From positions 1-64,000 of the forward strand of contig NZ_JAMZMI010000005.1 of the NCBI RefSeq assembly GCF_024714475.1: DNA of 64,000 bases. Direction: 5' to 3'. Source of the DNA: Marinoscillum sp. MHG1-6. GTDB lineage: Bacteria > Bacteroidota > Bacteroidia > Cytophagales > Cyclobacteriaceae. Under the pieces are notes generated by a model. That model had not been told where the DNA came from and searched no databases. It saw only the letters and a program-made list of their open reading frames with translations. Each line of letters begins with the position of its first letter. Positions within the stretch are counted from its first letter, which is position 1. The position numbers and the translations under genes were made by a program. This document shows positions 62 through 12,134 of the stretch, in pieces.

Positions 62-102
62 CGTAACTGTTTAAATGTACAATTTTTGTCGCCTTTCAAA
101 CA
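1..102 (-). mobile_element. Edge of an IS3-family insertion sequence (partial)
   Basis: The first 61 bases, read on the minus strand, encode the start of an IS3-type OrfA, so the window opens inside an insertion sequence. The outer boundary is uncertain. IS3 elements usually end in TG...CA, and a CA at 101-102 (TG on the minus strand) about 40 bases upstream of orfA is a plausible terminus. The rest of the element, its other end and any target duplication lie outside the window. Confidence 0.55.
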
Positions 103-578
103 GTCCTATTTTTAGGGAAGCTTACAACTGGATTATTAAAAACAAAAGAATTCCTGATCACATCTTCAACAGAAACAGTCCTAAGAGTAAGAATATTAAT
201 GATTATATTGAAATTTTTGAAGATGCTGTCATTAACGATTATGGAACAGGAACATGGAATAATCGAAATCAGTTTATTGATAGTCTAATTTCTTTATCAA
301 CAAAAGATGAGAAGTCATTTAAGCAGGTTAAGGGAACGTTTGAAAACTGGATCAAGAAGTTTGACTTAAAGTTTCTATACTATCAAATACAAAGATTGGA
401 ATTGGAATATTACTCAAAAGTTTCAGAAAATCTTACCATTGAAGAAGTAATTGATAAGCTAAATAAGGAAGAAGAAGATACTGTTTCAATCTTAAATAAC
501 TTATTTGAATTGAAGCCTAACATTGCTGGAGTAGGGCTTAATCTCAATAGATTCATAGAATACTTTAAAAGAAAATGA
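75..578 (+). pseudogene. Unknown protein, probably 5'-truncated by the IS insertion
   Basis: An open frame of 167 codons runs from an ATG at 75, which probably lies inside the IS end, so the native N-terminus appears to be lost. I do not recognise the family. The visible part is hydrophilic and mostly helical, with aromatic-rich stretches (WIIKNKRIPD, NWIKKFDLKFLYYQIQ) and a C-terminus reading GVGLNLNRFIEYFKRK. That ending is loosely like the short C-terminal or effector-associated modules of NTP-dependent conflict systems, but this is a weak impression. The stop overlaps the next start (ATGA at 575-578), so it is translationally coupled to the two following genes and was the upstream or middle gene of one operon. 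Confidence 0.5.
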
Positions 579-1030
579 ACCAATGGTCAGAACTCCGTCC
601 TTTATCCAAGCTAGATCAGCTTGCAGAGACCATCATGAAAACTGCTTTCTTACTCTCTGAAAATCATCATGTTATTCAGAGTTATCTAAACCACAAAGGA
701 GCTCATTTTAAGATAATCAATCGAGTAGGGGAGTCAGAGCTTGATATTCTATGTCGTCACGTGAACATCGAGAAAACAAACTATGCTTTCGTATCTAAAT
801 CTGATCTTGAACGAGGTTTAAGAGATGATCTATGGATTGGCTTAGTCTTGTTTGTGGATGGTCAGAAACCAAAAAAATATCTATTTCCAAGCACTGTTTG
901 GAATGAACCAAATCAGCTATTCACAGATTCGGCTGTTAAGAACCCTGAGTATGGAGTCAACCTGAATCAGCACACAATGAAAGAGTTTGTGCAGAAATAT
1001 GCTTTTGAAAGAATGATAAGCCAATTATGA
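575..1030 (+). CDS. Hypothetical protein of HNH cassette (DUF4365-like flavour)
   Basis: A 151-residue soluble protein sandwiched between the truncated first gene and an HNH nuclease, overlapping both by ATGA. No signal peptide or membrane segment is visible. The C-terminal half (dLWIGLVLFVDG, KKYLFPSTVW, NPEYGVNLN) resembles the end of DUF4365/restriction-endonuclease-like proteins, where a strand, a YLIPS-type turn and a W recur. I see no convincing PD-(D/E)xK catalytic set, so the nuclease reading is uncertain. Operonic coupling with an HNH enzyme argues for a role in the same complex or conflict system. The name is inference from local sequence flavour only. Confidence 0.5.
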   Translation: MNQWSELRPLSKLDQLAETIMKTAFLLSENHHVIQSYLNHKGAHFKIINRVGESELDILCRHVNIEKTNYAFVSKSDLERGLRDDLWIGLVLFVDGQKPKKYLFPSTVWNEPNQLFTDSAVKNPEYGVNLNQHTMKEFVQKYAFERMISQL

Positions 1031-1764
1031 AAAGATTTCCCAGGAAGATAAAGTTGAATACGATTAAAAATCTGCTAGCTAGGTCGGGAAATCAATGTGC
1101 ATTTCCAGAGTGTGATCATCCGCTATTTAATGACAGTAACCTTTTTGTCGCGCAGCTATGTCATATTGAGGCACTTTCTCCAAATGCGCCCAGATATAAC
1201 CCAGACGCAAATGATGAAGAAGTTAATTCCTTTGAGAACCTTTTATTTATGTGCTATCGTCATCATAAAGAAACAGATGATGTTGAGAAATACACTGTTA
1301 GCAAGCTAAAACAGATTAAAGAAGATCATGAAAATCGGTTTAAGGAACATGAATTCTCAATAAATGGCGAAGCAATACAAGTTATAATTCAGGACATGAA
1401 TGAGTTTTGGGCGAATGTGGAGCATATAAATAACTATGAACACGTAGCTAAAGATTTCAAGATTGACATATCGTCAAGCAAGGATGAGACTATGTTGATT
1501 AAGGAAATACGTCAGCAATTGAGTAATTTCTATGATATAGTAGGTCTACTATCAAAGGATCTGAAACATGATAATTTTGAGCTGCTATGTCTAGCTATCC
1601 CTAATACAATGACTAGACTTAGTGTTTTAATTGATCAAATTGAGATAAAAATTCTTGAATTGAAGCTAATAAATGAACCTGGTCGAGAGGATATAAAAAC
1701 TGATTTGTCTAAGCTTCGAGAAGAACTGAAACATACAGCTAAACATGTAGGTCTAGCTGACTAA
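1027..1764 (+). CDS. HNH endonuclease with C-terminal helical domain
   Basis: A 245-residue protein. The N-terminal ~105 residues carry an HNH zinc-finger nuclease: Cys24 and Cys29 (CAFPEC), His46 in the LCHIEA motif, Asn71 in SFENLLFMC, and Cys76 with His79/His80 (CYRHH). The spacing and the surrounding PRYNP and KEDHE blocks are typical of HNH enzymes found in restriction and anti-phage loci. Residues ~115-245 are helical and charged and unassigned; they may bind the partner proteins. It overlaps the upstream gene by ATGA (1027-1030) and closes the cassette. It is most likely the DNA-cutting effector. HNH identity is strong; the defence role is inference. Confidence 0.75.
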   Translation: MKRFPRKIKLNTIKNLLARSGNQCAFPECDHPLFNDSNLFVAQLCHIEALSPNAPRYNPDANDEEVNSFENLLFMCYRHHKETDDVEKYTVSKLKQIKEDHENRFKEHEFSINGEAIQVIIQDMNEFWANVEHINNYEHVAKDFKIDISSSKDETMLIKEIRQQLSNFYDIVGLLSKDLKHDNFELLCLAIPNTMTRLSVLIDQIEIKILELKLINEPGREDIKTDLSKLREELKHTAKHVGLAD

Positions 1765-1886
1765 TATTATGTTAAGTAGAATCTAATCCACGACTAGGCG
1801 GGCTGGCAAGGCAAAATACCGGGGGTGCGGTGGTCTGTGTGTTGGGAGTGATTATTTTGTCCCGGCGGGGAACCGCTAGATTTTTG

Positions 1887-1913
1887 CATACTTTTCATCA
1901 ATGGAAAAGTATG
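1887..1913. repeat. Perfect 10-bp inverted repeat, 7-base loop
   Basis: CATACTTTTC (1887-1896) and GAAAAGTATG (1904-1913) are perfect inverse complements around the loop ATCAATG. There is no T-run on either side, so it does not look like an ordinary intrinsic terminator. It lies about 120 bases past the stop of the HNH gene. It could be an end-of-operon structure, a protein-binding palindrome, or one end of a degenerate element. Confidence 0.5.
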
Positions 1914-1981
1914 AGCCCAGCGGCTTGAGCGTCACAGCGAACACAGATAAAAGACAGATGATCTGTGAGCTGTACTGCCAG

Positions 1982-2040
1982 TAGCATGGAGATTGCCACG
2001 TCAACAATGCTTCGCAAAGTTTCCTCGCAATGACGTGCTA
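1982..2040. repeat. REP-like palindromic element (GTCATTGCGAGG type)
   Basis: Read on the minus strand, this contains GTCATTGCGAGG ... GCGAAGCA ... TTGACGTGGCAATCTC. It is the widespread dispersed intergenic repeat that pairs GTCATTGCGAG with GCAATCTC in many Bacteroidota and other phyla. CACGTCA (1997-2003) pairs with TGACGTG (2031-2037), and TAGCA (1982-1986) with TGCTA (2036-2040). A diverged relative is at 63156-63223. I see no transposase gene beside it. Confidence 0.55.
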
Positions 2041-2224
2041 CTTGAGGGCTTGTGCTGTGAGCCAAACAAAGCGTTGGCAAGCAAGGCTACGCGCCCCGGT
2101 GTTCACAGGCAAAGTCCCGAGCCGCGTAGGCTAGTCGCTGAGAATGGCGTATTTGAAAACGAACTGAACAATCGTACGGATAACGAAAAATAAGACAATA
2201 CAACTTTGCCTGGGATTCTCTTGC

Positions 2225-2400
2225 ATTTGGGGCGGACGGCTAGTCCTGGTGATCAGGCCATAGCCTGAAAGCGGGTGGGAAACTATCGGCACGCGTAGTG
2301 TAATAGCCGTTTGGTCTACGCGACCCGGTCAGGGCACGGCAGAGCGCAGGGTTTGTGCGCTGGCCGACGGTCCACCGAAGCGGCTACCGAAACGTCGGCC
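2225..2400. other. GC-rich chain of stem-loops; candidate structured RNA or recombination module
   Basis: Three perfect stems follow one another: CAGGC/GCCTG with a 4-base loop (2254-2267), CGCGTAG (2292-2298) with CTACGCG (2316-2322), and GGCCGACG (2362-2369) with CGTCGGCC (2393-2400). The stretch is markedly GC-rich against an AT-rich surrounding and has no credible coding frame. It stops directly against an AT-rich palindrome. No known riboswitch or ncRNA family was recognised. Function is unknown. Confidence 0.4.
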
Positions 2401-2401
2401 C

Positions 2402-2430
2402 GGTTAATATAACGTCTAATTATATAACAT
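2402..2430. repeat. AT-rich palindrome, dif-site relative A
   Basis: Arms GGTTAATATAA (2402-2412) and TTATATAACAT (2420-2430) flank a 7-base centre. The right arm is the exact inverse complement of the left arm of the dif-like site at 2638-2665. It abuts the GC-rich stem array. A 7-base rather than 6-base centre makes it a poorer Xer substrate candidate than the third copy. Confidence 0.45.
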
Positions 2431-2493
2431 GGACCGGAATCCAAAAATCAAACCAAGGAGCACTACACGAACAAACTCGCTGGCCACTGCCAG

Positions 2494-2519
2494 CTTAATA
2501 TAATATAGAATTATATAAG
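2494..2519. repeat. AT-rich palindrome, dif-site relative B
   Basis: CTTAATATAA (2494-2503) and TTATATAAG (2511-2519) flank the centre TATAGAA. It has the same layout as the palindrome at 2402-2430 and closely similar arms. Its right arm also pairs with the left arm of the site at 2638-2665, so the two bracket the hairpin at 2537-2633. Confidence 0.45.
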
Positions 2520-2536
2520 CAGGATTCGTGTGAGGG

Positions 2537-2633
2537 ATATGGATTTGTTTTAACATAAAATCATTGTCGTTATTCGACTGTCATCAAATAACTGATTTTA
2601 TATTAATCAGCAAAGCTGACCACAAATCCATAT
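2537..2633. repeat. Nested inverted repeat between two dif-like palindromes
   Basis: An outer 12-bp perfect arm, ATATGGATTTGT (2537-2548) with ACAAATCCATAT (2622-2633), encloses an inner 9-bp perfect arm, ATAAAATCA (2555-2563) with TGATTTTAT (2593-2601). The whole can fold into one interrupted hairpin. There is no coding frame inside. It could be a miniature mobile element, a folded single-strand recombination site, or an RNA hairpin. Confidence 0.5.
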
Positions 2634-2637
2634 AGCA

Positions 2638-2665
2638 ATGTTATATAATTTATATTATGTTAAAT
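2638..2665 (+). other. dif-like XerC/XerD recombination site
   Basis: This is a 28-base site of 11 + 6 + 11. The left arm is ATGTTATATAA (2638-2648), the centre TTTATA (2649-2654) and the right arm TTATGTTAAAT (2655-2665). The right arm is identical to the XerD-binding half of Escherichia coli dif, and the left arm ends in ATAA as XerC halves do. The architecture fits a chromosome-dimer resolution site or an attachment site used by Xer-exploiting elements. Gene direction changes here, consistent with a replichore junction. No xer gene is in the window. Confidence 0.5.
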
Positions 2666-2797: not shown

Positions 2798-3991
2798 TTA
2801 ATGATGATGACCGCCGCCTTCTTCTTCAGTGTTCTTGGCTTTGGCCAGTAACGTAAAAGCTCCGCCAGTCACGACCTGGAGTTCATCGATCACCAGCTCT
2901 TTGTCCACCAGCGCAATACCCGTGTAGCCGTCTTCAGAAATTCCTTTGATTACTTCAGTCATTTCAAACGCATGTGTGTTGCCTTCGTGCAGTCCATCAT
3001 AAGTAAACACATAATGTTTGCCTCCAAACCTTACGACCGTTTCATCTGGCACGGCCCAGACTTCATTCAGGTCAGTATCAATTCGCGCCATCACGTACAT
3101 TCCCGGTAACAAATCCACATAATGCTCTTTCAAATGTCCGTGTACCGTCACCGAACGATCTTCTCTCACGCCACTCCCGATGAGAAAAACCTCTGCTTCG
3201 CGCCACTGGTCCGGAGCGTTGGCCAACGAAAACCGAATGCGTTGCCCATTTTTGATCTTGGGAATGTCATTTTCATACACGGACAGCTCCACGTGCAGGT
3301 CCTCACGATTGGTAATATCCATGATCACATCCTGCGGATTAATGTATTTACCAGTATTGGTATAAATCTCTCTTACATTTCCTGTCACCGGAGAATAAAT
3401 GTTGACTGTTGCAGAAACAGCCCCATTTTTAATGCGCGTGGTATTAAACCCGATGAGTTTCAATCGTGCTTCCATCGTCTTGATGCGGGCCTCATTGGCC
3501 AGGTAGCTGCTTTTTGCCTGTTGGTAATTCTTTTCGGAGGCCACATTTTCCTTATAAAGCCTTTCCTGGCGTTCATATTCAGCTTTTAGGTACTCCTGGT
3601 TTGCTATACTCTCCAGGTAATCCTGCTGAAACTGGATAAACTCCGGGTTTTCGATCCTCACCAGCACCTGTCCCCTTTTGACAGGACTACCGGGCAGCAT
3701 CTCAGTATATTCCACAAATCCCCCGTATGGCATATTGATGGATATATTGCTCTTAGGTGGCACATCTATGATGCCATTGACCCGAAGCTCCGACCCGATC
3801 ATCTTCTTTTCAATTTTTCCCAGCTGGATGTCGGCCTGCTCATATTGTGCCTGGCTGAGCGCTACAGTGTTTTCTGCCTCATGGTGATGCAGTTCAGTTT
3901 CCGGTGATTTGCCGGCGCCACACGAACTCATAATCGTCACCATCGCAACGACCTTAGCTATTTGTTTGATATATGTCACTATACTTTGCAT
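2798..3991 (-). CDS. RND efflux periplasmic adaptor (CusB/HlyD-like lipoprotein)
   Basis: A 397-residue membrane-fusion protein that would bridge the inner-membrane RND pump and the outer-membrane channel to export metal ions. A lipobox (TIMSSC, Cys24) marks it as a lipoprotein anchored in the inner membrane. A His-rich patch follows (ELHHHE, ~34-39). The core has the usual order: lipoyl-like half (~75-110, MPYGGFVEY and GSPVKRGQVL), helical hairpin (~115-180), second lipoyl half (~195-215, SPVTGNVREIY), then beta-barrel and membrane-proximal domains. The C-terminus ends GGGHHH, so both ends may bind metal. It is the last gene of a minus-strand operon, 13 bases after the pump gene. Metal specificity (copper/silver or zinc/cobalt) cannot be settled from sequence. 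Confidence 0.85.
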   Translation of the reverse strand: MQSIVTYIKQIAKVVAMVTIMSSCGAGKSPETELHHHEAENTVALSQAQYEQADIQLGKIEKKMIGSELRVNGIIDVPPKSNISINMPYGGFVEYTEMLPGSPVKRGQVLVRIENPEFIQFQQDYLESIANQEYLKAEYERQERLYKENVASEKNYQQAKSSYLANEARIKTMEARLKLIGFNTTRIKNGAVSATVNIYSPVTGNVREIYTNTGKYINPQDVIMDITNREDLHVELSVYENDIPKIKNGQRIRFSLANAPDQWREAEVFLIGSGVREDRSVTVHGHLKEHYVDLLPGMYVMARIDTDLNEVWAVPDETVVRFGGKHYVFTYDGLHEGNTHAFEMTEVIKGISEDGYTGIALVDKELVIDELQVVTGGAFTLLAKAKNTEEEGGGHHH

Positions 3992-4004
3992 GTCTTCTCT
4001 TGTT

Positions 4005-7000
4005 TTATTGAGCTCCTGAGATAAACTCGATTTGAATGATGGTTTGATTGTACTGGTCCAGCATGTTCAGGTATGCCGACCGCACTTTCAGCGCCTGGCT
4101 GATCCCCTCGATATATTTTTCATAGCCCACTTCCCCGCTTTCAAACCATTGCTCTGATTGTTTGATAATTTGATCTGCCTGTGGAAGGGCGTTTTCCTGG
4201 TAATAATCCAGGCTGGCCCGATACTTTTGATATTGCTGAATCAATGTCTGCAGCCTCCCCTCCAGTTGATTGGTTGTTGCTTGTAGCTGAGCTTCAGTCT
4301 CTTGCCGCTTCAGTTCTGCGGCTTTTATAGAGGAAGTATACGCCCCGGCACCAAAGATGGGAATCTGAACGCCCACGGTAAAACCGGTAAACCGATCACC
4401 ACCATCGAATACCACCGGGTTTCCATTGATATCCTGATTGGGACCTCTGAAAGTCTGATTGAAGTACCCTACCTTCAAATCCGGCAGCATTTTGGACTGT
4501 TCTACAGATTTTTCCCTTTCAGCCACCGCTATTTGTTGCCTAAACCAGGCCAACGTTGGGTTTTCTGCAACATCCGGGCTACTCAGCAGCACTTCACTGC
4601 TTCTTTCCTGAAGCATTTCCTGTTCCATTTCAATGGGTTGATCACTGTTGAGAAGCACTTGCAATTGCGTGCGGTACATCTCTATTTCAGTCTGATTTTG
4701 GTCCAGAGCCACGACAATCTCCGCTACCTGGGATGCTGCGGTAAACTTTTCCAGCAGGTTGGTCTCCCCTGTTTCATACCGCAGTGTGGCCGCCTGAAGA
4801 AACCGTTCATAGATACTGTCCTGCGTCAATAGTAGCTGTCTTTGACTATACTCCATCCACAGGTGATACCAGGTGGCTTTTACCTGTTGCACCAATTCAT
4901 TTTGTGTCGCCGACTTCCGCCATTCACTCGCTTCAATTTTGGCCCTTGCCAGCTGACTTTGCCCACTGTAAACAGTCGGAAAGGCGAAGGACTGACTGAT
5001 ATTCCATTGGCTATCGTTATCATAGATGCTGTTGGTTTGTCCGCGCGTCAGGCTGATTCCGGTTTTAGGGATATTCCAGCTCGTACCCCGTAAGGCCCTC
5101 TCCTGCTGCAACTGCAAATCCGCCACTTTCAGGTCCGGATTATTGGCAATGGCCACGTCAATGGCCTCATCGAGTGTATGGATAGTGGTATTAGTCAAAT
5201 CCTGCGCATTGACTTCCTGAAAGGCCAAAAACATCAGAGGAAAAGCCCATACGGCTATTTTAAGCCTGACCTTTAGCCCCTTTTCGAAATAGTAGTACAA
5301 AATCGGCAGCACGACCAGGGTTAGAAAAGTTGCTGTGACCAGCCCGCCGATCACGACGGTAGCCAGCGGTTTCTGTACCTCCGCACCTGATGAGGTGGAC
5401 AGCGCCATGGGTAAGAATCCCATAGAGGCAACTGCCGCGGTCATAATCACCGGCCGTAACCGTATGCGCGTACCTATATAGATCCGCTCGAAAACATCAG
5501 CAACTCCCTCCTGCTTCAAGTGGTTAAATTCTGCAATCAACACGATTCCATTGAGCACCGACACTCCGAATAAAGCGATGAACCCCACTCCTGCTGAGAT
5601 ACTAAATGGCATGTCCCGGACCCAGAGGGCGAGAATCCCTCCGATGGCAGAAAGTGGAATCGCTGAAAAGATCAGCACGCCCTGTTTGAGCGACCCGAAG
5701 GTGAAATAGAGTAAGGTAAAAATGAGCAATAGCGCTATCGGCACTGCAAAAGATAGTCGCTGACGTGCTTCAATAAGGTTTTCAAACTGTCCTCCATAGG
5801 CGACCGAGTATCCCGGTGCAAACACGATGGACGAAGCTATTTTCTGCTGGAGTTCCTCTACCACGCTCTCGACGTCACGGTTTCTCACATTGAACGCTAC
5901 CAATATTCGCCTGCGTGTATCGTCCCGCTGAATCTGGTAAGGTCCCTCCTTGATTGCCACGTTGGCCACCTGGTATAACGGGATCTGGTGACCGTCTTTC
6001 CGTGCGATGTACAGATTTCGCACCGTTTCAATTTCCTCCCGGTTGCTTTTGGTGAGCCTCACCACCAGGTCAAATCGTCTTTCGTTCTCGAAAACCAACC
6101 CGGCAGAGGCTCCGGCAAATGCTGCCTGAACAGAGCGGTTGACATCTTTGATACTCAGTCCATATTTCGCCAGCTGATCACGCTTGTAGGTGATTACCAC
6201 CTGAGGAACACCAGTGACTTCTTCAATGTACACATCCACGGCCCCGTCAACTTGCGAGGCTACTCTTCCGATTTGCGCAGCGTATTCGGAGAGTTGGTTC
6301 AGGTCTTCTCCATAGATTTTCACGGCTACATCCTGCCGCACACCCGTCATCAATTCATTGAAACGCATCTGGATGGGTTGCTGAAAACCGAAAGTCACCC
6401 CGGGAATCACCTCGAGGGCTTCGGACATGGCATTGGCCAGGTCTTCCCGGTTATCCGCAGTCACCCACTCCTCCTTGTCTTTCAGGATGATCATCAGATC
6501 GGCCGCCTCTATCGGCATAGGGTCTGTGGGAATTTCACCTGCCCCAATTTTGGCAACCACCTGCGTTACCTCAGGGAATTGCTCCAGCAGGATTTTTTCA
6601 GCCTGCGTGGTGGCTTTGATGGTATTTTCCAGCGAGCTACCCGTAATAACACGTGTTTCTACAGCAAAATCGCCTTCCTCCAGGGTCGGGATAAACTCTC
6701 CTCCCATGGTGGTGAAAACCCAGAGCGACGCACCAAAAAGACCCAGTGCCAGCGTCAGCACGAACGGCCTGTGATGCATGGCCCACCTGATCGCCGGCAC
6801 ATACAGCCTGTGAAAAAAGGCCATGATTTTATCAGATATGTTTGCCTTAAACTCTGTTTTCTTACTCAAAAACAAGGCTGACATCATCGGCACATAGGTG
6901 ATCGAAAGAATGAAAGCACCTAGAATAGCAAAACTTACAGTCTGAGCCATAGGGCGAAACATCTTTCCTTCAGTACCTACCAATGCCAGGATCGGCAGGT

Positions 7001-8378
7001 AAACGATCAGGATAATGATCTCGCCAAAGGCCGCTGAGTTTCGGATCTTACTGGCCGACTGATAAACCTCATGGTCCATTTCGTCCTGCGTAAGCCGTCG
7101 ACCGATCTTCTTCAACCCCAGGTGGTGCATGGTAGCCTCGACGATAATCACGGCTCCATCCACAATCAACCCAAAATCTATGGCTCCAAGGCTCATCAGG
7201 TTACCTGATACACCGAATTGGTTCATCATACCAAAGGCGAAAATGAGTGCCAGCGGAATCACTGAGGCCACAATCAGGCCTGCCCTAAGGTTGCCTAAAA
7301 GTAGCAGCAATACGAAAATGACAATAAGCGCCCCTTCCGTCAGGTTTCGCGTGACCGTCCCGATGGCGTTATTGACCAGCTTGGTTCGGTCGAGAAAAGG
7401 CTCAATCGTAACCCCCTCAGGCAATGTCTTTCTGATCTGCTCGATACGGGCCTTCACTTCTTCGATCACCTCTGCTGAATTCTCTCCCTTGAGCATCATC
7501 ACGATTGCACTCACCACCTCTCCTTCTCCATTTCTGGTGGTTGCACCATAGCGCACGGCACTTCCGAGCTGAACGGTGGCCACATCCCTGATAAGCACTG
7601 GGATACCCTTATCATTGCTTTTTATGGCGATCTTTCGGATGTCATCGAGGCTGCCAACAAGTCCTTCACTTCGGATAAAATACGCCCTTAGGCTTTTCTC
7701 GATGTAGGCGCCCCCCGTATTCTCATTGTTCTCTTCTAAGGCCTGAAAGATGTCCGCAATGGAAATGTTCATGGCCTTCAACTTATCCGGGTCAATAGCG
7801 ATTTCATACTGCTTCAGGTATCCTCCGAAGCTACTGACATCGGCCACTCCGGGTGTGCCCAGCAATTGCCGTTTGACAATCCAGTCCTGTATGGTACGAA
7901 GCTTTCGTGCATCATATTGGTCTTCATAGCCGGGCGTGGTACCCACTACATACTGGTAGATTTCCCCCAGTCCGGTGGTTACCGGAGCCATTCCGGGGTT
8001 TCCCACGCCAGGTGGTATTTGAGCAATTACCTCCGGAAGCCTTTCGCTCACCTGCTGACGTGCCCAGTACACATCCACGTCTTCTTTAAAAACAATGGTC
8101 ACCACTGAGAGCCCAAATCGGGAAAATGAGCGTATTTCCTCAATTTCCGGGATCGTAGCCATGGTTATTTCGACCGGGAAGGTAATTAGACGTTCCACCT
8201 CTTCTGCCGCTAATGATGGCGACGAAGTGATCACCTGCACCTGGTTATTGGTGATGTCGGGAACAGCATCAATGGGCAGCCTGGTCAGGGAGTAAATCCC
8301 CCAGATGATCAGACCCAGCGTAAACAGCCCGATCATCAGCTTATTCTTAACTGAAAAAAGAATGATTTTATCCAGCAT
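4005..8378 (-). CDS. CusA/CzcA heavy-metal RND pump fused to TolC-like channel
   Basis: A 1457-residue fusion. Residues 1 to ~1040 are a complete heavy-metal RND transporter using the proton gradient: N-terminal helix, two large periplasmic porter blocks, and the HME signature with D, D and E in AIDFGLIVDGAVIIVEA near residue 400. It ends with the last membrane helix (VVLPILYYYFEKGLK). A hydrophobic stretch ending in a signal-peptidase-like VNA-QD site at ~1055 follows, then ~400 residues of TolC/CusC outer-membrane factor (DEAIDVAIANNPDLKVADLQ and long helical hairpins). Such fusions are known in Bacteroidota. The internal signal-like segment suggests the two halves are separated by cleavage or that TolC is exported from within. 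The operon is DUF6660, pump, adaptor. Confidence 0.9.
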   Translation of the reverse strand: MLDKIILFSVKNKLMIGLFTLGLIIWGIYSLTRLPIDAVPDITNNQVQVITSSPSLAAEEVERLITFPVEITMATIPEIEEIRSFSRFGLSVVTIVFKEDVDVYWARQQVSERLPEVIAQIPPGVGNPGMAPVTTGLGEIYQYVVGTTPGYEDQYDARKLRTIQDWIVKRQLLGTPGVADVSSFGGYLKQYEIAIDPDKLKAMNISIADIFQALEENNENTGGAYIEKSLRAYFIRSEGLVGSLDDIRKIAIKSNDKGIPVLIRDVATVQLGSAVRYGATTRNGEGEVVSAIVMMLKGENSAEVIEEVKARIEQIRKTLPEGVTIEPFLDRTKLVNNAIGTVTRNLTEGALIVIFVLLLLLGNLRAGLIVASVIPLALIFAFGMMNQFGVSGNLMSLGAIDFGLIVDGAVIIVEATMHHLGLKKIGRRLTQDEMDHEVYQSASKIRNSAAFGEIIILIVYLPILALVGTEGKMFRPMAQTVSFAILGAFILSITYVPMMSALFLSKKTEFKANISDKIMAFFHRLYVPAIRWAMHHRPFVLTLALGLFGASLWVFTTMGGEFIPTLEEGDFAVETRVITGSSLENTIKATTQAEKILLEQFPEVTQVVAKIGAGEIPTDPMPIEAADLMIILKDKEEWVTADNREDLANAMSEALEVIPGVTFGFQQPIQMRFNELMTGVRQDVAVKIYGEDLNQLSEYAAQIGRVASQVDGAVDVYIEEVTGVPQVVITYKRDQLAKYGLSIKDVNRSVQAAFAGASAGLVFENERRFDLVVRLTKSNREEIETVRNLYIARKDGHQIPLYQVANVAIKEGPYQIQRDDTRRRILVAFNVRNRDVESVVEELQQKIASSIVFAPGYSVAYGGQFENLIEARQRLSFAVPIALLLIFTLLYFTFGSLKQGVLIFSAIPLSAIGGILALWVRDMPFSISAGVGFIALFGVSVLNGIVLIAEFNHLKQEGVADVFERIYIGTRIRLRPVIMTAAVASMGFLPMALSTSSGAEVQKPLATVVIGGLVTATFLTLVVLPILYYYFEKGLKVRLKIAVWAFPLMFLAFQEVNAQDLTNTTIHTLDEAIDVAIANNPDLKVADLQLQQERALRGTSWNIPKTGISLTRGQTNSIYDNDSQWNISQSFAFPTVYSGQSQLARAKIEASEWRKSATQNELVQQVKATWYHLWMEYSQRQLLLTQDSIYERFLQAATLRYETGETNLLEKFTAASQVAEIVVALDQNQTEIEMYRTQLQVLLNSDQPIEMEQEMLQERSSEVLLSSPDVAENPTLAWFRQQIAVAEREKSVEQSKMLPDLKVGYFNQTFRGPNQDINGNPVVFDGGDRFTGFTVGVQIPIFGAGAYTSSIKAAELKRQETEAQLQATTNQLEGRLQTLIQQYQKYRASLDYYQENALPQADQIIKQSEQWFESGEVGYEKYIEGISQALKVRSAYLNMLDQYNQTIIQIEFISGAQ

Positions 8379-8505
8379 ATCAATTTATTGGATTTTGAAT
8401 TTCATAACATTTTTAATGACCATCAGGCCATTAAAGGATTGCATAGCGTATCAGCCCTCAATGAAGCATCTCATTAAGCGCTCGCTACATCGCTGCTATT
8501 AAAAT

Positions 8506-8814
8506 TCATACCTGGGGTGGCTGGAGAATGCCGGAAGAAATTCCATCGATAAGTACAGGTGAAAAGGTGGAGCGATTCTCTACTATCGTTCGTTGTGAAG
8601 TAATACTGAGGTACAGGTTGCAAACCACTAAGTTGGTATGACAACATTGGCAAACACACAATGGAGAACATAGATCAGAAGTGTGATGATCGTGATGCTG
8701 GTGCGCCTCCAGAAGCGAAATTTCATCCTGACGACAGTCTGTATCCTCATCCCCGCAAGGAGTTAAAGACAGCGTAAGTATCAGAATCGTCATTATGATA
8801 GCAAAAAACTTCAC
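8506..8814 (-). CDS. DUF6660-type small exported His/Cys-rich protein
   Basis: About 102 residues, starting at a GTG (8814); an ATG at 8793 is an alternative that removes seven residues. The start is a hydrophobic signal (ILILTLSLTPC), followed by DEDTDC and a His/Cys-rich segment (HQHHDHH, CSPLCVCQCC). This is the pattern of DUF6660 proteins, which in Bacteroidota sit directly upstream of CusA/CzcA pumps. The function is not established; the His and Cys clusters suggest periplasmic metal binding. It heads the efflux operon, with 127 bases before the pump start. Confidence 0.7.
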   Translation of the reverse strand: MKFFAIIMTILILTLSLTPCGDEDTDCRQDEISLLEAHQHHDHHTSDLCSPLCVCQCCHTNLVVCNLYLSITSQRTIVENRSTFSPVLIDGISSGILQPPQV

Positions 8815-8909
8815 CTTGCAATATTAATAAAATAGCTGAAGGATGCACACACTAACGGTTAAACCTGATTGATGCATGTAGTTAGCGAGCTAACAATCTG
8901 GCAATTCAA

Positions 8910-9410
8910 TTAATACTCCCAGGGATATTTTGGTTGGTAATATTCCTCTCTAATCAATGAGTCAGTCAACAGACATTCGTAATCATCACCCTTAGGGGTG
9001 ACTAAAACCAGCAAACTGTCTCTTACCGTGTATTGCTGTTTGATTCTAAGTCTTCCACCTAATATAAAAATCAGTGTAGTCCCTTTCGTTTCGTAGCTGC
9101 CGGAAAATACGGCACGCTCTTCACCCTGATAGGTATATAGTAGCTCATATTTCCCATTTTCCTTGAAAAGGTACCTTTCACAATTATCGGTGTTACATTC
9201 CTTTTCTCTGAAGTACTCAGAGAATCCGGGCTCACAATCCTCTGACGACTCGCTAATATAAATCCATGATCCAATAATGGACGGATCAATTTTATCACCA
9301 TTACATCCGGTAAGCCAGACCAACGCCAGACTACTGAAACTGATTAAATAAGTTAACCAAAGCCTCCATTTCTGTATGATATAGAATATCTGTAACATGG
9401 TTTCTTCCAT
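8910..9410 (-). CDS. Hypothetical lipoprotein, lipocalin-like
   Basis: 166 residues from the ATG at 9410 (ATG at 9398 is also possible). A hydrophobic segment ends in a lipobox (VWLTGC). The mature part alternates short strands (GSWIYISES, YLFKENGKYELLY, FSGSYETKGTTLIFIL), which is the layout of lipocalin-like lipoproteins in Bacteroidota that open with a G-x-W strand. Four cysteines (ECNTDNC region plus CEPG and ECLL) could form disulfides. It lies 10 bases after a beta-barrel-like gene and seems to be the last gene of a three-gene run. The fold assignment is a guess from strand pattern. Confidence 0.5.
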   Translation of the reverse strand: MEETMLQIFYIIQKWRLWLTYLISFSSLALVWLTGCNGDKIDPSIIGSWIYISESSEDCEPGFSEYFREKECNTDNCERYLFKENGKYELLYTYQGEERAVFSGSYETKGTTLIFILGGRLRIKQQYTVRDSLLVLVTPKGDDYECLLTDSLIREEYYQPKYPWEY

Positions 9411-9420
9411 TTAAAGGCTT

Positions 9421-10122
9421 TCAATAGCCAGGTGAGAACAGCTGTATTCCCAATCCAAAGCTTAGGAAGTCATTACCGTCAGGACTACCATCCAGGGCAT
9501 TACCTAAACCTATACTAAAACTTAGTTTTTTAATCCATTTATCCTCCTTGGGTGCAAACAAGGTGTATTGGCCACCCAGCATGAAATGATGTCTTGGGTT
9601 TGTCCATTCTTCACCCTCAGGCAACACCTTGTTGGAAATAAAGTCATGGCGATAAATAAACGTAGGTGAAAACCGCTCACTAACCGGCAATGAGAAATAG
9701 AAGGGTATGGAAGTAACACTTAAATCAACATCCGAATCATAGATGTAGCCCTTCATCAGCCCGGGAGAGAAAGTTAACCTGTTGTACTTGTTTTCTCTAT
9801 TGGATAGCTGCAATTTGCAATCGACCCAAAATGCATTAAAGGCATTATCATTGTTCTTTGTTACATCCAGGGTGTGATTCAGTCCAATGTCAAAATTATC
9901 TCCGGCCCCCACTCTTAAACCAAGACCAACCAAATTAATGGGGTCATCAGAGAGGTCTTCGGCATTATGCACACGCATATAAGTTCCGGATATTGACCCT
10001 TGACCCTTATCTAATGTCCGGGCTTCGTAAAAAGAAGTCATCACACAGCTAAAGAAAAAAGATACGACGCCAATAAGAAAAAGAAGGTCTACTTTCCAGG
10101 TGTTAATTCTTAGAAGTTTCAT
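9421..10122 (-). CDS. Hypothetical outer-membrane beta-barrel-like protein
   Basis: 233 residues. The N-terminal hydrophobic segment ends in FFFSC, a plausible lipobox, although lipidated barrels are uncommon. The rest alternates polar and aromatic residues in beta-strand fashion (LVGLGLRVGAGDNFDIGLNHTLDV, FNAFWVDCKLQL, IPFYFSLPVS), and the C-terminus (SFGLGIQLFSPGY) ends on an aromatic residue like outer-membrane barrels. No family recognised. The start overlaps the upstream DUF2085 gene by 20 bases. Confidence 0.55.
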   Translation of the reverse strand: MKLLRINTWKVDLLFLIGVVSFFFSCVMTSFYEARTLDKGQGSISGTYMRVHNAEDLSDDPINLVGLGLRVGAGDNFDIGLNHTLDVTKNNDNAFNAFWVDCKLQLSNRENKYNRLTFSPGLMKGYIYDSDVDLSVTSIPFYFSLPVSERFSPTFIYRHDFISNKVLPEGEEWTNPRHHFMLGGQYTLFAPKEDKWIKKLSFSIGLGNALDGSPDGNDFLSFGLGIQLFSPGY

Positions 10123-10702
10123 GGTAAAAAATTTTGGGTGAATTGAAATTTTGTCTGATTCGCAGCACGATCAGACCAAGCGTATAACCAATGTTCGCTA
10201 TCATGATCAGGGCCATAATCAACATCATAAGACTACTGATTAATGGATCGTAAACGACCACATAAACCAATAATAAACTGCCATAGAGTAGTAATAAGGC
10301 CTGTTTTAATTTTCTAAACCTATCAATGTTAAAATGAATGGAGTATTTTTGATAGTTGTTGACCAGGAGTCCGATGCCAATTCCTCCCAGTAATCCAGCA
10401 GTAAGTCGACTTAAGTCAGTGGCAGCATATCCTGTGATTTGAGCTAATAGCCATTCCAAAGCCGCCAAAGCCAGGAATACCATACCCACACCGCCAAACC
10501 AATTGGATACCCGGTTCGATTGATACTCAATAAAAAAGGATAAACTCAACCATACGCTAAAGAAACCTGTTTGCAGTCCTATACATCTTATGCACAGAGG
10601 GAAGGGAGTACCCTCTATATGCATCAAGATGGATTCATTTTGGTGACAAAACAGCCCAAAAAAGACTGTAACAAAGTGAGTTAGCTCATGGTGCGGTTCC
10701 AT
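10103..10702 (-). CDS. DUF2085 integral membrane protein
   Basis: 199 residues if translation starts at the ATG at 10702; the open frame extends to a TTG at 10732, a less likely start. The N-terminal motif FFGLFCHQNES...PFPLCIRCIGLQTGFF matches DUF2085, whose proteins carry CHQ and LCxRC near the start, before four to five membrane helices. Helices are visible at SVWLSLSFF, VGMVFLALAALEWLLA, LTAGLLGGIGIGLLV, ALLLLYGSLLLVYVVV and MMLIMALIMIANI. The conserved Cys/His set may bind metal, but no function is known. It is the first gene of a run with the two downstream envelope proteins. Confidence 0.75.
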   Translation of the reverse strand: MEPHHELTHFVTVFFGLFCHQNESILMHIEGTPFPLCIRCIGLQTGFFSVWLSLSFFIEYQSNRVSNWFGGVGMVFLALAALEWLLAQITGYAATDLSRLTAGLLGGIGIGLLVNNYQKYSIHFNIDRFRKLKQALLLLYGSLLLVYVVVYDPLISSLMMLIMALIMIANIGYTLGLIVLRIRQNFNSPKIFYHETSKN

Positions 10703-10897
10703 TGGCCCAAGGGTGAATTTGAATAAAACCAACCAATATCCTCACCGGATGCTAATGATTAGTTTACAAAATTGAAGTTAGTAAACACCTCATTGAAGAA
10801 TTAACACAGAATTATCAAAGGCTAACAGATTTCATTCATTAGTTATTATTCTCCTCATTTTGGCTAATTGCATAATGGAATTGGAAACTGTAGGCAT

Positions 10898-10925
10898 AAA
10901 AAAAGCCACATGGTCATCATGTGGC
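10898..10925 (-). terminator. Rho-independent terminator of the gyrA-TPR operon
   Basis: GCCACATG (10905-10912) and CATGTGGC (10918-10925) form an 8-bp perfect stem with a GTCAT loop. On the minus strand seven T follow (A-run at 10898-10904). It lies 24 bases after the stop of the TPR gene. Confidence 0.85.
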
Positions 10926-10949
10926 TTTCTAAGTCATTTATGTTTCGGA

Positions 10950-12134
10950 TCATTCCTCAGGCATGCCATCCAACACCTTTTCCATGTCGTCAGCCTTGTC
11001 CCACATTTTCAAACGTCCGTAGATATATCCTAAAGTCTCAACAACCTGTCTGTCATCCGGAGCAATTTCATAGATCCTTTCCCACTGTGGTAAAGCAGCC
11101 TGGTACTTTTCTTTGATTTTTGGCTCCAGCGCTCTTGCCTTCTTCTTATCGGCAGCCGAAATACCGAGGTCACTATACTCTTTGTAAACCTCGTTCGCAG
11201 CATTCAAGAGCAATACTCCTTTGTTAAAGTTGGCCTCAAACATATCAGGATCAACCGCGATTGCCCGATCGTAAGTAGCTGCTGCTGCTTCCAAATCGCC
11301 TGTTTCCTCGTACATCGCTGCCAGATTGAAAAGCAAGTTGGTATTTTCCGGCTCAGCCTCAATTGCTTTTTTAAGGTCTTCAATAGCTTCCTCCACTTTA
11401 TCCATTTGGATCAAAAGATTGATCTTGTTCTTGGTAAAAGTCGGGTCGCCAGGGAAAGCTTCCAAAGCATTATTTACAGCTACCAATGCAGCCTCATTGT
11501 CCTTCTTCTCAACAGACAACAAATAGATCAGATTGGAGTGCATGTCCTGTGAGGTAGCCCCTGCCTCGATCGCTGCTTTATAATTATTGATGGCATCATC
11601 ATAAAGCTCACCACTATGCGCTGCATATGCAGCATTTTTCAAGGAATTAGTATCTGCTTTTAATACCATCGCAGATTTCTGAAACTTCTCAACGGCAGTT
11701 TCATAATCCTCATCCTGAAAAGCAACTACCGCATCATTGAAATAATAGCTGTAGTAGCCATCTATTTGCTGGCTTTTAGTTTGAGGGAAACCACTTGCAC
11801 TAATAATGAAGTATTCTTTATCCTTATCTCCTAACTCGTCTGCTTTATCAAAGGCAGCCATTGCTGTTTCCAGCGCGTTGGCCTTCAAAGAATTGTATTG
11901 AGGATTAGAGGTGGTATCGATCGTAGCGTAGATCAAACCCCTGTAGTACCAGGTTTTACCATCATCTTTTGTTTTTTCATAGTCAATAGCCAAATCGATG
12001 ATTTCCTTCGCTTCAGCTAGCTCGCCTCTTTCTCTTGCAGCATTTGCCTTATTGATTTTAGGTTTAGGCTGCTTTTGTGAATATGCTACGACAACTAATG
12101 CCGCCAATGTTATCGTTAAAAACGCTCGTCTCAT
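10950..12134 (-). CDS. Exported tetratricopeptide repeat protein
   Basis: 394 residues with a Sec signal peptide (AFLTITLAALVVVAYSQ) and at least six TPR units, for example ~140-170 (AVVAFQDEDYETAVEKFQKS), ~175-205, ~245-275 (KVEEAIEDLKKAIEAEPEN) and ~280-310 (DLEAAAATYDRAIAVDPDM). It would act as a periplasmic protein-interaction scaffold; no enzymatic motif is visible. It begins 21 bases after gyrA and shares its transcript and terminator. A gyrA-TPR pair is a common arrangement in Bacteroidota, but a functional link to gyrase is not implied because this protein is exported. Confidence 0.8.
   Translation of the reverse strand: MRRAFLTITLAALVVVAYSQKQPKPKINKANAARERGELAEAKEIIDLAIDYEKTKDDGKTWYYRGLIYATIDTTSNPQYNSLKANALETAMAAFDKADELGDKDKEYFIISASGFPQTKSQQIDGYYSYYFNDAVVAFQDEDYETAVEKFQKSAMVLKADTNSLKNAAYAAHSGELYDDAINNYKAAIEAGATSQDMHSNLIYLLSVEKKDNEAALVAVNNALEAFPGDPTFTKNKINLLIQMDKVEEAIEDLKKAIEAEPENTNLLFNLAAMYEETGDLEAAAATYDRAIAVDPDMFEANFNKGVLLLNAANEVYKEYSDLGISAADKKKARALEPKIKEKYQAALPQWERIYEIAPDDRQVVETLGYIYGRLKMWDKADDMEKVLDGMPEE

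Follow-up and report, generated by a model that had tools for sequence, protein, structure and literature searches.

A dif site at the replication terminus of Marinoscillum sp. MHG1-6 is probably also the right end of an integrase-less unit that entered like CTXphi

In integrons, genes are gathered at one insertion point, where cassettes are taken up as folded single strands and the newest lies beside the platform. Several described elements make use of dif or dif-like sites. CTXphi and the other integrative mobile elements exploiting Xer (IMEX) at dif1 of Vibrio cholerae carry opposed dif-like sites that form a forked hairpin (in CTXphi attP1 with a 12-nt centre and, in opposite orientation, attP2 with a 7-nt centre in three of the four variants listed) and rebuild dif, such that after integration of CTXphi one functional dif and two dead sites are present (PMC3089051). 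The Microviridae-related proviruses of Bacteroidetes (BMV) encode capsid and replication proteins and are flanked by dif-like sites, three of them (BMV4-6) having an additional site near one end (PMC3091885). Filamentous and tailless prophages of marine Vibrio, described as phages with a small variable locus, bear defence and toxin-antitoxin cargo at dif (PMC11630473), and the pdif modules of Acinetobacter, described mainly on plasmids, hold accessory genes between Xer sites (PMC6449649, PMC12907356). We analysed the first 64 kb (the window) of a contig of Marinoscillum sp. MHG1-6 (C21, which starts inside an insertion sequence (IS)), in which a 28-base site at 2638-2665 had been proposed, in a sequence-only reading, as a candidate chromosomal dif where gene direction flips. 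That proposal found support. Going beyond it, we consider it fairly probable that the DNA to the left of the site is an integrated element, the site being both the working dif of the terminus and the right end of a unit that has no integrase and entered in the manner of CTXphi.

The site (ATGTTATATAA.TTTATA.TTATGTTAAAT) has the 6-base centre and the XerD-like right arm that had been ascribed to it, the arm being one that we take to be identical to the XerD half-site of E. coli. It is identical to the XerD arms of V. cholerae dif1 and dif2 as listed in Table I of PMC3089051. Within the window ATAAN6TTATGTTAAAT matches free of mismatches only at dif (at up to three mismatches there are 8 matches, against a shuffled mean of 4.6), and in the whole genome, at up to two mismatches, it occurs at 23 places, exact at dif alone (26 places for the reversed control). 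The 28-mer itself is single-copy in the 4.10-Mb genome at up to three mismatches, and no better or second dif was found there. Of 98 genomes of the order (the own genome counted), 83 contain the core ATAATTTATATTATGTTAAAT at up to two mismatches, mostly in one copy each, and an exact scan of the species genome collection yielded at least 119 loci; among the 80 matches listed, the titles named Bacteroidota taxa in 69 cases, proteobacteria in nine and no phylum in two. In three related genera all 20 genomes searched have the core as their only good site, one of them with an extra two-mismatch match. A search for the recombinases, as had been suggested, showed that the genome encodes XerD above the NCBIfam cut-off and a second Xer-type protein (276 bits, under its cut-off), which we took as XerC. 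Already in 2011 dif was predicted in 19 of 19 Bacteroidetes genomes (PMC3025954). The 28-base site is a real chromosomal dif and, as a site, an ordinary one for Bacteroidota, with XerCD/FtsK-dependent dimer resolution as its predicted role. Rfam gave nothing at gathering threshold in the window.

To follow the GC skew across the site the contigs had to be ordered. One end of the IS (end A) was found at four places among the fetched contig ends (C21, the end of C20, C5 and inside C23) and the other (end B) at two (the start of C20 and C5). The reverse complement of C5, RC(C5), terminates in ACTG before end B and C21 opens with ACTG after end A; likewise, RC(C20) finishes with GATC and RC(C5) starts with GATC. 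The remaining two copies of end A have different flanks, for which no partner was found among the fetched contig ends. Since these 4-bp flanks match, we infer the order RC(C20), RC(C5), C21. With the contigs so placed, the skew changes sign at dif. To the right, successive steps of about 20 kb give -0.115, -0.114 and -0.056, and three more samples of C21 range from -0.042 to -0.055, with slightly positive 4-kb windows at 48-54 kb and 60-64 kb; to the left the skew is +0.072 on RC(C5) and +0.030 to +0.150 in all five sampled stretches of RC(C20). Gene direction flips as well: right of dif 41 of 47 non-overlapping open reading frames (ORFs) of at least 120 aa are on the minus strand, which upholds the bias noted before, if not its count of 42 of 48. 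Left of dif the three plus-strand genes follow the IS end as had been noted, and in the 20 kb of RC(C20) closest to C5 13 of 13 ORFs are on the plus strand (11/17, 12/13 and 8/18 in deeper samples). In samples of G036, a genome in one contig of 6.52 Mb, the skew stays positive from 1.3 Mb as far as dif (3.81 Mb) and is negative from 4.0 Mb on through the contig end to 0.7 Mb; in G028 it was too noisy to tell. Together, the sign changes support dif as the replication terminus, given the contig order above. Neither a skew that fails to switch here nor a better dif elsewhere, with this copy present many times, was observed.

The layout found left of dif in relatives is like that of CTXphi, with centres of 9-11 and mostly 7 nt, and on this likeness we infer a CTXphi-like path of entry. 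A circular single strand would fold into a hairpin through two dif-like sites in inverted orientation, host XerC would join the folded site to dif, and replication would complete the insertion, a functional dif being rebuilt at the right end. Because dif would be rebuilt there, the next unit would insert at that same end, and repeated insertion would build tandem arrays on the XerC side of dif, made up of units whose toxin-antitoxin, anti-phage or metabolic genes are enclosed by conserved non-coding ends. The catalysis by XerCD and the single-stranded form and entry of the units are presumed by analogy with CTXphi.

We define a left end as a XerC arm, a centre of 9-11 nt and a XerD arm followed by AGCTTNGG or a similar sequence, and a right end as the functional dif, preceded in most cases by an inverted dif-like site, by a forked hairpin that covaries or by the two together. 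A search with an unrestricted centre located left ends kilobases from dif, on the strand of dif. The strict pattern gave 16 sites in 12 of 390 genomes and none for the reversed control. In 28 studied stretches, those of five genomes having been chosen for their strict-pattern matches, 18 left ends were found on the XerC side (494 kb) and none on the XerD side (316 kb), on the opposite strand or in 20 shuffles; three of the 18 come from G347, where dif is outside the fetched stretch and the side was deduced from orientation. Their centres start with TG in 17 cases and with TT in one, the patterns having demanded T and then G or T, and the first T is therefore by design. AGCTTNGG follows in 14 of the 18, is one base off in three, and is replaced by a similar sequence further on in one (G347, -33625). 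A chance origin of the end features is contradicted by the shuffles, the reversed pattern and the counts on the XerD side. We make no claim of left ends beyond the order, as a phylum-wide pattern matched 10 genomes (6 outside the order) against 9 for its reversed control.

At several internal boundaries of tandem arrays the right-end features of the older unit precede the next left end much as they precede dif. The inverted site lies 51-52 nt before internal left ends (G284, G136 and G347) and 51 nt before dif (G017, G136 and G098), and the fork lies 83-84 nt before internal left ends (twice in G079) and about 82-102 nt before dif. Internal boundaries in G079, G284, G136 and G347 repeat the geometry of the right end, and the presence of right-end features before both internal left ends and dif therefore looks like the footprint of repeated insertion at a dif rebuilt on the right. 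From mark to mark the distances run from 980 bp (G347) and 1,035 bp (G284) up to 16.6 kb (G017), corresponding to units of 1.0 to about 17 kb; further boundaries may be hidden in G033 (72 kb) and in a 25.6-kb stretch of G347.

At the right end, 18 of 73 loci have on the XerC side, within 450 bp, a composite inverted dif-like site that scores 16 or more of 18; on the XerD side none of the 73 has one, and over 20 shuffles a single locus of the 73 ever reached this score. Their centre is 7 nt in 12 of the 18, and mostly 7 or 5 nt overall. XerC- and XerD-type arms are also enriched within 300 bp of dif on the XerC side. Between the inverted site and dif there is often a forked hairpin, for which we built a model on nine sequences (the window, relatives and named Flavobacteriaceae and Bacteroidales contigs). 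Among 19 sequences 92.6% of the pair cells are paired and 23 of 36 pairs change on both sides, a covariation reached by none of 500 shuffles, with slid partners being 32-43% paired; the alignment was fitted to the model, so that these values lean toward the structure. The model matches 11 of the 390 genomes of the order under stricter filters. Nine of its 15 matches end about 10 nt or less from dif, three about 10 nt or less from a left end, and the other three overlap or adjoin such places. At locus L225 (about 4900-5373, G074) several tandem fork-like hairpins are present left of dif.

The two sides of dif differ in gene content. Gene families were clustered with BLAST around dif in 23 genomes. 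On the XerD side, three families, gyrA among them, are present in all seven genomes of genus g79, in six directly beside dif (in the exception, G079, about 6.8 kb of extra DNA separates dif from these families), and one family is present in all nine of genus g93. Within 12 kb on the XerC side only seven families are common to 2-3 genomes of a genus, at differing distances. In these two related genera the XerD-side genes are kept and the XerC side has no common gene order.

The cargo is varied. Units of about 1 kb carry a PIN-type gene (G284), a MazF-type gene (G347) or a helix-turn-helix gene reading like HigA with a HigB-like neighbour (G024 and L220), and a 1.4-kb unit carries a RhuM/Fic gene. 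Among the larger units, that of G036 encodes SIR2 and HerA, that of G350 a dGTPase together with a short Argonaute, and that of G136 PD-(D/E)XK, kinase and PP2C proteins along with an Argonaute-like one; a larger unit of G347 has NACHT, and that of G098 a regulator, a hydrolase and a protease. In G028 a cyclic-oligonucleotide-based anti-phage signalling (CBASS) set (cyclase, NucC, E1-E2 and JAB) lies left of dif, where no left end was found. A nitrous-oxide-reductase gene set lies between a left end and dif in G109 (L281; nosZ and nosD by Pfam, the other nos names by our own reading), and the cargo is therefore not limited to defence. A Pfam scan of 30 cargo proteins gave no match to families of capsid, replication, integrase or relaxase proteins, many other cargo proteins (e.g. 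of G238 and G017) being outside the scan. Likewise, the capsid or morphogenesis genes plus replication genes of an inovirus or microvirus provirus were not seen among the proteins scanned (30 by Pfam, and 10 by PHROGs with a single tail-collar match).

The window contains the right part of one such unit, interrupted by the IS (Table 1). The piece of gene next to the IS probably belongs with an HNH plus NACHT-type gene on C5 (endonuclease effectors by PADLOC; its NACHT match of 24.5 bits is below Pfam's 26.7), which runs to the IS from a left-end motif (TTATGTTAATATAGCTTAGG) at 1018 of RC(C5), adjoining a GreA/GreB gene. The unit would then measure about 6.6 kb without the IS, with 4,086 bp on C5 and 2,522 bp on C21. 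Neither Pfam nor PADLOC assigned a family to the 151-aa protein, and the HNH-type protein matches three PHROGs of unknown function. The XerC-type arm of the stronger inverted site is the exact reverse complement of the XerC arm of dif, and the long hairpin of the fork bears inverted XerD-type arms (2550-2562 and 2594-2606). An inverted second dif-like site combined with a long-centre left boundary, as in CTXphi, is seen in relatives; the window has the inverted site, and the left boundary on C5 is only partly of that form. A unit limited to 1767-2665 was ruled out, as left ends sit upstream of cargo. The start of C20 was also ruled out as another copy of the unit, the common part being a short hairpin repeat only: the repeat at 1883-1929, in the 3' module, has two 84%-alike copies at 1144-1194 and 1464-1514 of C20 (G000) with no dif context. 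The 3' module opens with a XerD-type arm (1767-1777) adjoining the last cargo stop codon, as in several relatives.

Table 1. Coordinates of dif and of the features to its left in the window
Feature	Position	Strand	Evidence or remarks
IS end, IS3-type by our reading of the transposase start; contig break	1..126	-	C20 and C5 share the end; 93% copy on C23
Cargo gene piece, cut by the IS	75..578	+	Start codon inside the IS end; ACTG flanks match
Cargo, 151-aa protein	575..1030	+	BLAST cluster F38: relative in the SIR2/HerA unit of G036
Cargo, HNH-type protein	1027..1764	+	PADLOC PDC-M68A and endonuclease effectors; none by Pfam
Conserved 3' non-coding module of the unit	1760..2440	+	nhmmer profile (this region as seed) matches near right ends of related units
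Inverted dif-like site, 7-nt centre, attP2-like	2402..2430	-	XerD-type arm 2402-2412, centre 2413-2419, XerC-type arm 2420-2430
Second, weaker inverted dif-like site, 7-nt centre	2493..2521	-	
Forked hairpin (outer stem, long hairpin, small second hairpin)	2534..2635	+	Match to model R1 at 2538-2633; covariation in 19 sequences
Chromosomal dif and probable right boundary of the integrated unit	2638..2665	+	Uniqueness in the genome, core in most genomes of the order (83/98), skew flip
XerC arm of dif	2638-2648		
6-bp centre of dif	2649-2654		
XerD arm of dif	2655-2665		

Several observations do not fit easily with a CTXphi-like entry. At 55 of the 73 loci the inverted site scores below 16, and the inverted XerC arm agrees poorly with its neighbouring arm (identity in 16 of 21 triplets, a value reached by 301 of 10,000 permutations). 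With 17 of the 18 left-end centres starting with TG, as against TT for the centre of dif, only the first exchanged base would pair, and the pairing rule given for CTXphi (PMC3089051) is not clearly followed. Under the strict patterns some right ends and internal boundaries are without an inverted site or fork (the inner left ends of G187, and -7077 of G347), and palindromes that bear inverted XerD-type arms and were not linked to dif contain the left-end motif as well (L391, L393, L406, L404 and L405). In the left end on C5 that we ascribe to the unit of the window no XerC arm can be recognised, nor did a search of the own genome reveal a full left end; neither a free circle of a unit nor a pair of strains with and without one was found. 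Moreover, the XerD side also takes insertions (the CusBA region of the window, and G079), and, of the 10 proteins compared with PHROGs, the one encoded first in the G036 unit matches tail-collar profiles (E 7e-9); these last two observations slightly reduce our confidence in both the CTXphi-like and the integron-like reading.

The tail-collar match also speaks for an origin of the units as satellites or decayed proviruses of dif-integrating single-stranded DNA phages, in which cargo has replaced the phage genes and a helper supplies replication and packaging. The dif-like boundaries and additional sites of BMV and the defence cargo of the Vibrio prophages offer precedents, and such a helper could use the conserved non-coding ends as an origin of phage type. 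We nevertheless regard this origin as unlikely, as the Pfam-scanned part of the cargo is devoid of capsid, replication and integrase families, the units reach about 17 kb, and phage and plasmid records hold no similar sequence, for which reason a plasmid or phage origin by similarity was rejected. In viral contigs the fork, the inverted site and one exact left-end pattern were all absent, and two looser left-end patterns matched 9 contigs and 1 contig (L351-L359 and L390). One of these matches (L357) reads TTGTTCTATAA.TGTAGTTGCG.TTATGTTAAAT, and the printed proteins of four of the nine contigs read like tailed-phage genes, by our own reading and with no family search.

Islands assembled by conventional Xer recombination of double-stranded DNA between dif-type sites, the route proposed for the pdif modules, would give accessory genes bounded by Xer sites too. 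Their standard dif-type ends with a 6-bp centre were not found here: the left-end centres are 9-11 nt and those of the inverted sites mostly 7 or 5, against 6 for dif, and this asymmetry is that of CTXphi, making such an assembly very improbable. We give no more weight to the fork and repeats belonging to the host's dif locus, as accessory DNA or a terminus RNA, with the variable genes being ordinary plasticity of the terminus; if anything we think it slightly less probable still. The fork does lie within about 10 nt of dif in nine genomes and recurs in contigs of Flavobacteriales and Bacteroidales, but its occurrence is patchy, and the same fork precedes internal left ends far from dif (twice in G079, and in G350), which disfavours a host function.

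The preferred reading, a CTXphi-like entry at dif, connects the units to each of the systems mentioned at the outset without making them identical to any. With CTXphi and the other IMEX they share the opposed dif-like sites, the forked hairpin and the rebuilt dif; they differ in residing in another host phylum, in the length of the left centres and in cargo, which is toxin-antitoxin, defence or metabolic, with phage morphogenesis and replication genes not found in the scanned proteins. BMV occur in the same phylum and have similar boundaries, but in another host order and, as described, with capsid and replication genes of their own. The Vibrio prophages use the same hotspot for similar cargo, but are phages, and the pdif modules are described mainly on plasmids, as against the asymmetric ends at the chromosomal dif that are seen here. 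The single insertion point, the cassettes that would be folded single strands and the newest unit next to the platform recall integrons. The units here are larger, and dif and presumably host XerCD would stand in for attI and the integrase; no IntI-type integrase was seen among the scanned cargo, a scan that did not cover every gene near dif, and attC was not searched.

Whether the Cytophagales have, in this sense, an integron without an integrase, with dif as platform and host XerCD capturing non-viral single-stranded cassettes (defence, toxin-antitoxin or metabolic) at the terminus, we put forward only tentatively, as we consider it somewhat less than an even chance. Our searches of the open-access literature turned up no description of cassettes with folded sites and no phage at a Bacteroidota dif (preprints and most subscription papers being outside this scope). 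If this reading is right, a large environmental group also uses its site of dimer resolution to capture genes, with no need of a dedicated integrase, and nature has found a second solution of the integron type. The order of left end, inverted site, fork and dif would then be a sequence rule for finding defence and metabolic cargo, and the movement of units without a recognised mobility gene would become testable.

Right of dif, the window also departs from most g79 relatives, in which the gyrA block directly adjoins dif. At 2798-12134 the CusBA region and other genes lie between dif and a TPR gene and gyrA, the latter being 9.5 kb from dif. Within this region, 4005-8378 encodes a CusA/CzcA-type resistance-nodulation-division (RND) pump fused to an outer-membrane efflux (OEP) domain (1457 aa), beside a CusB-like adaptor.
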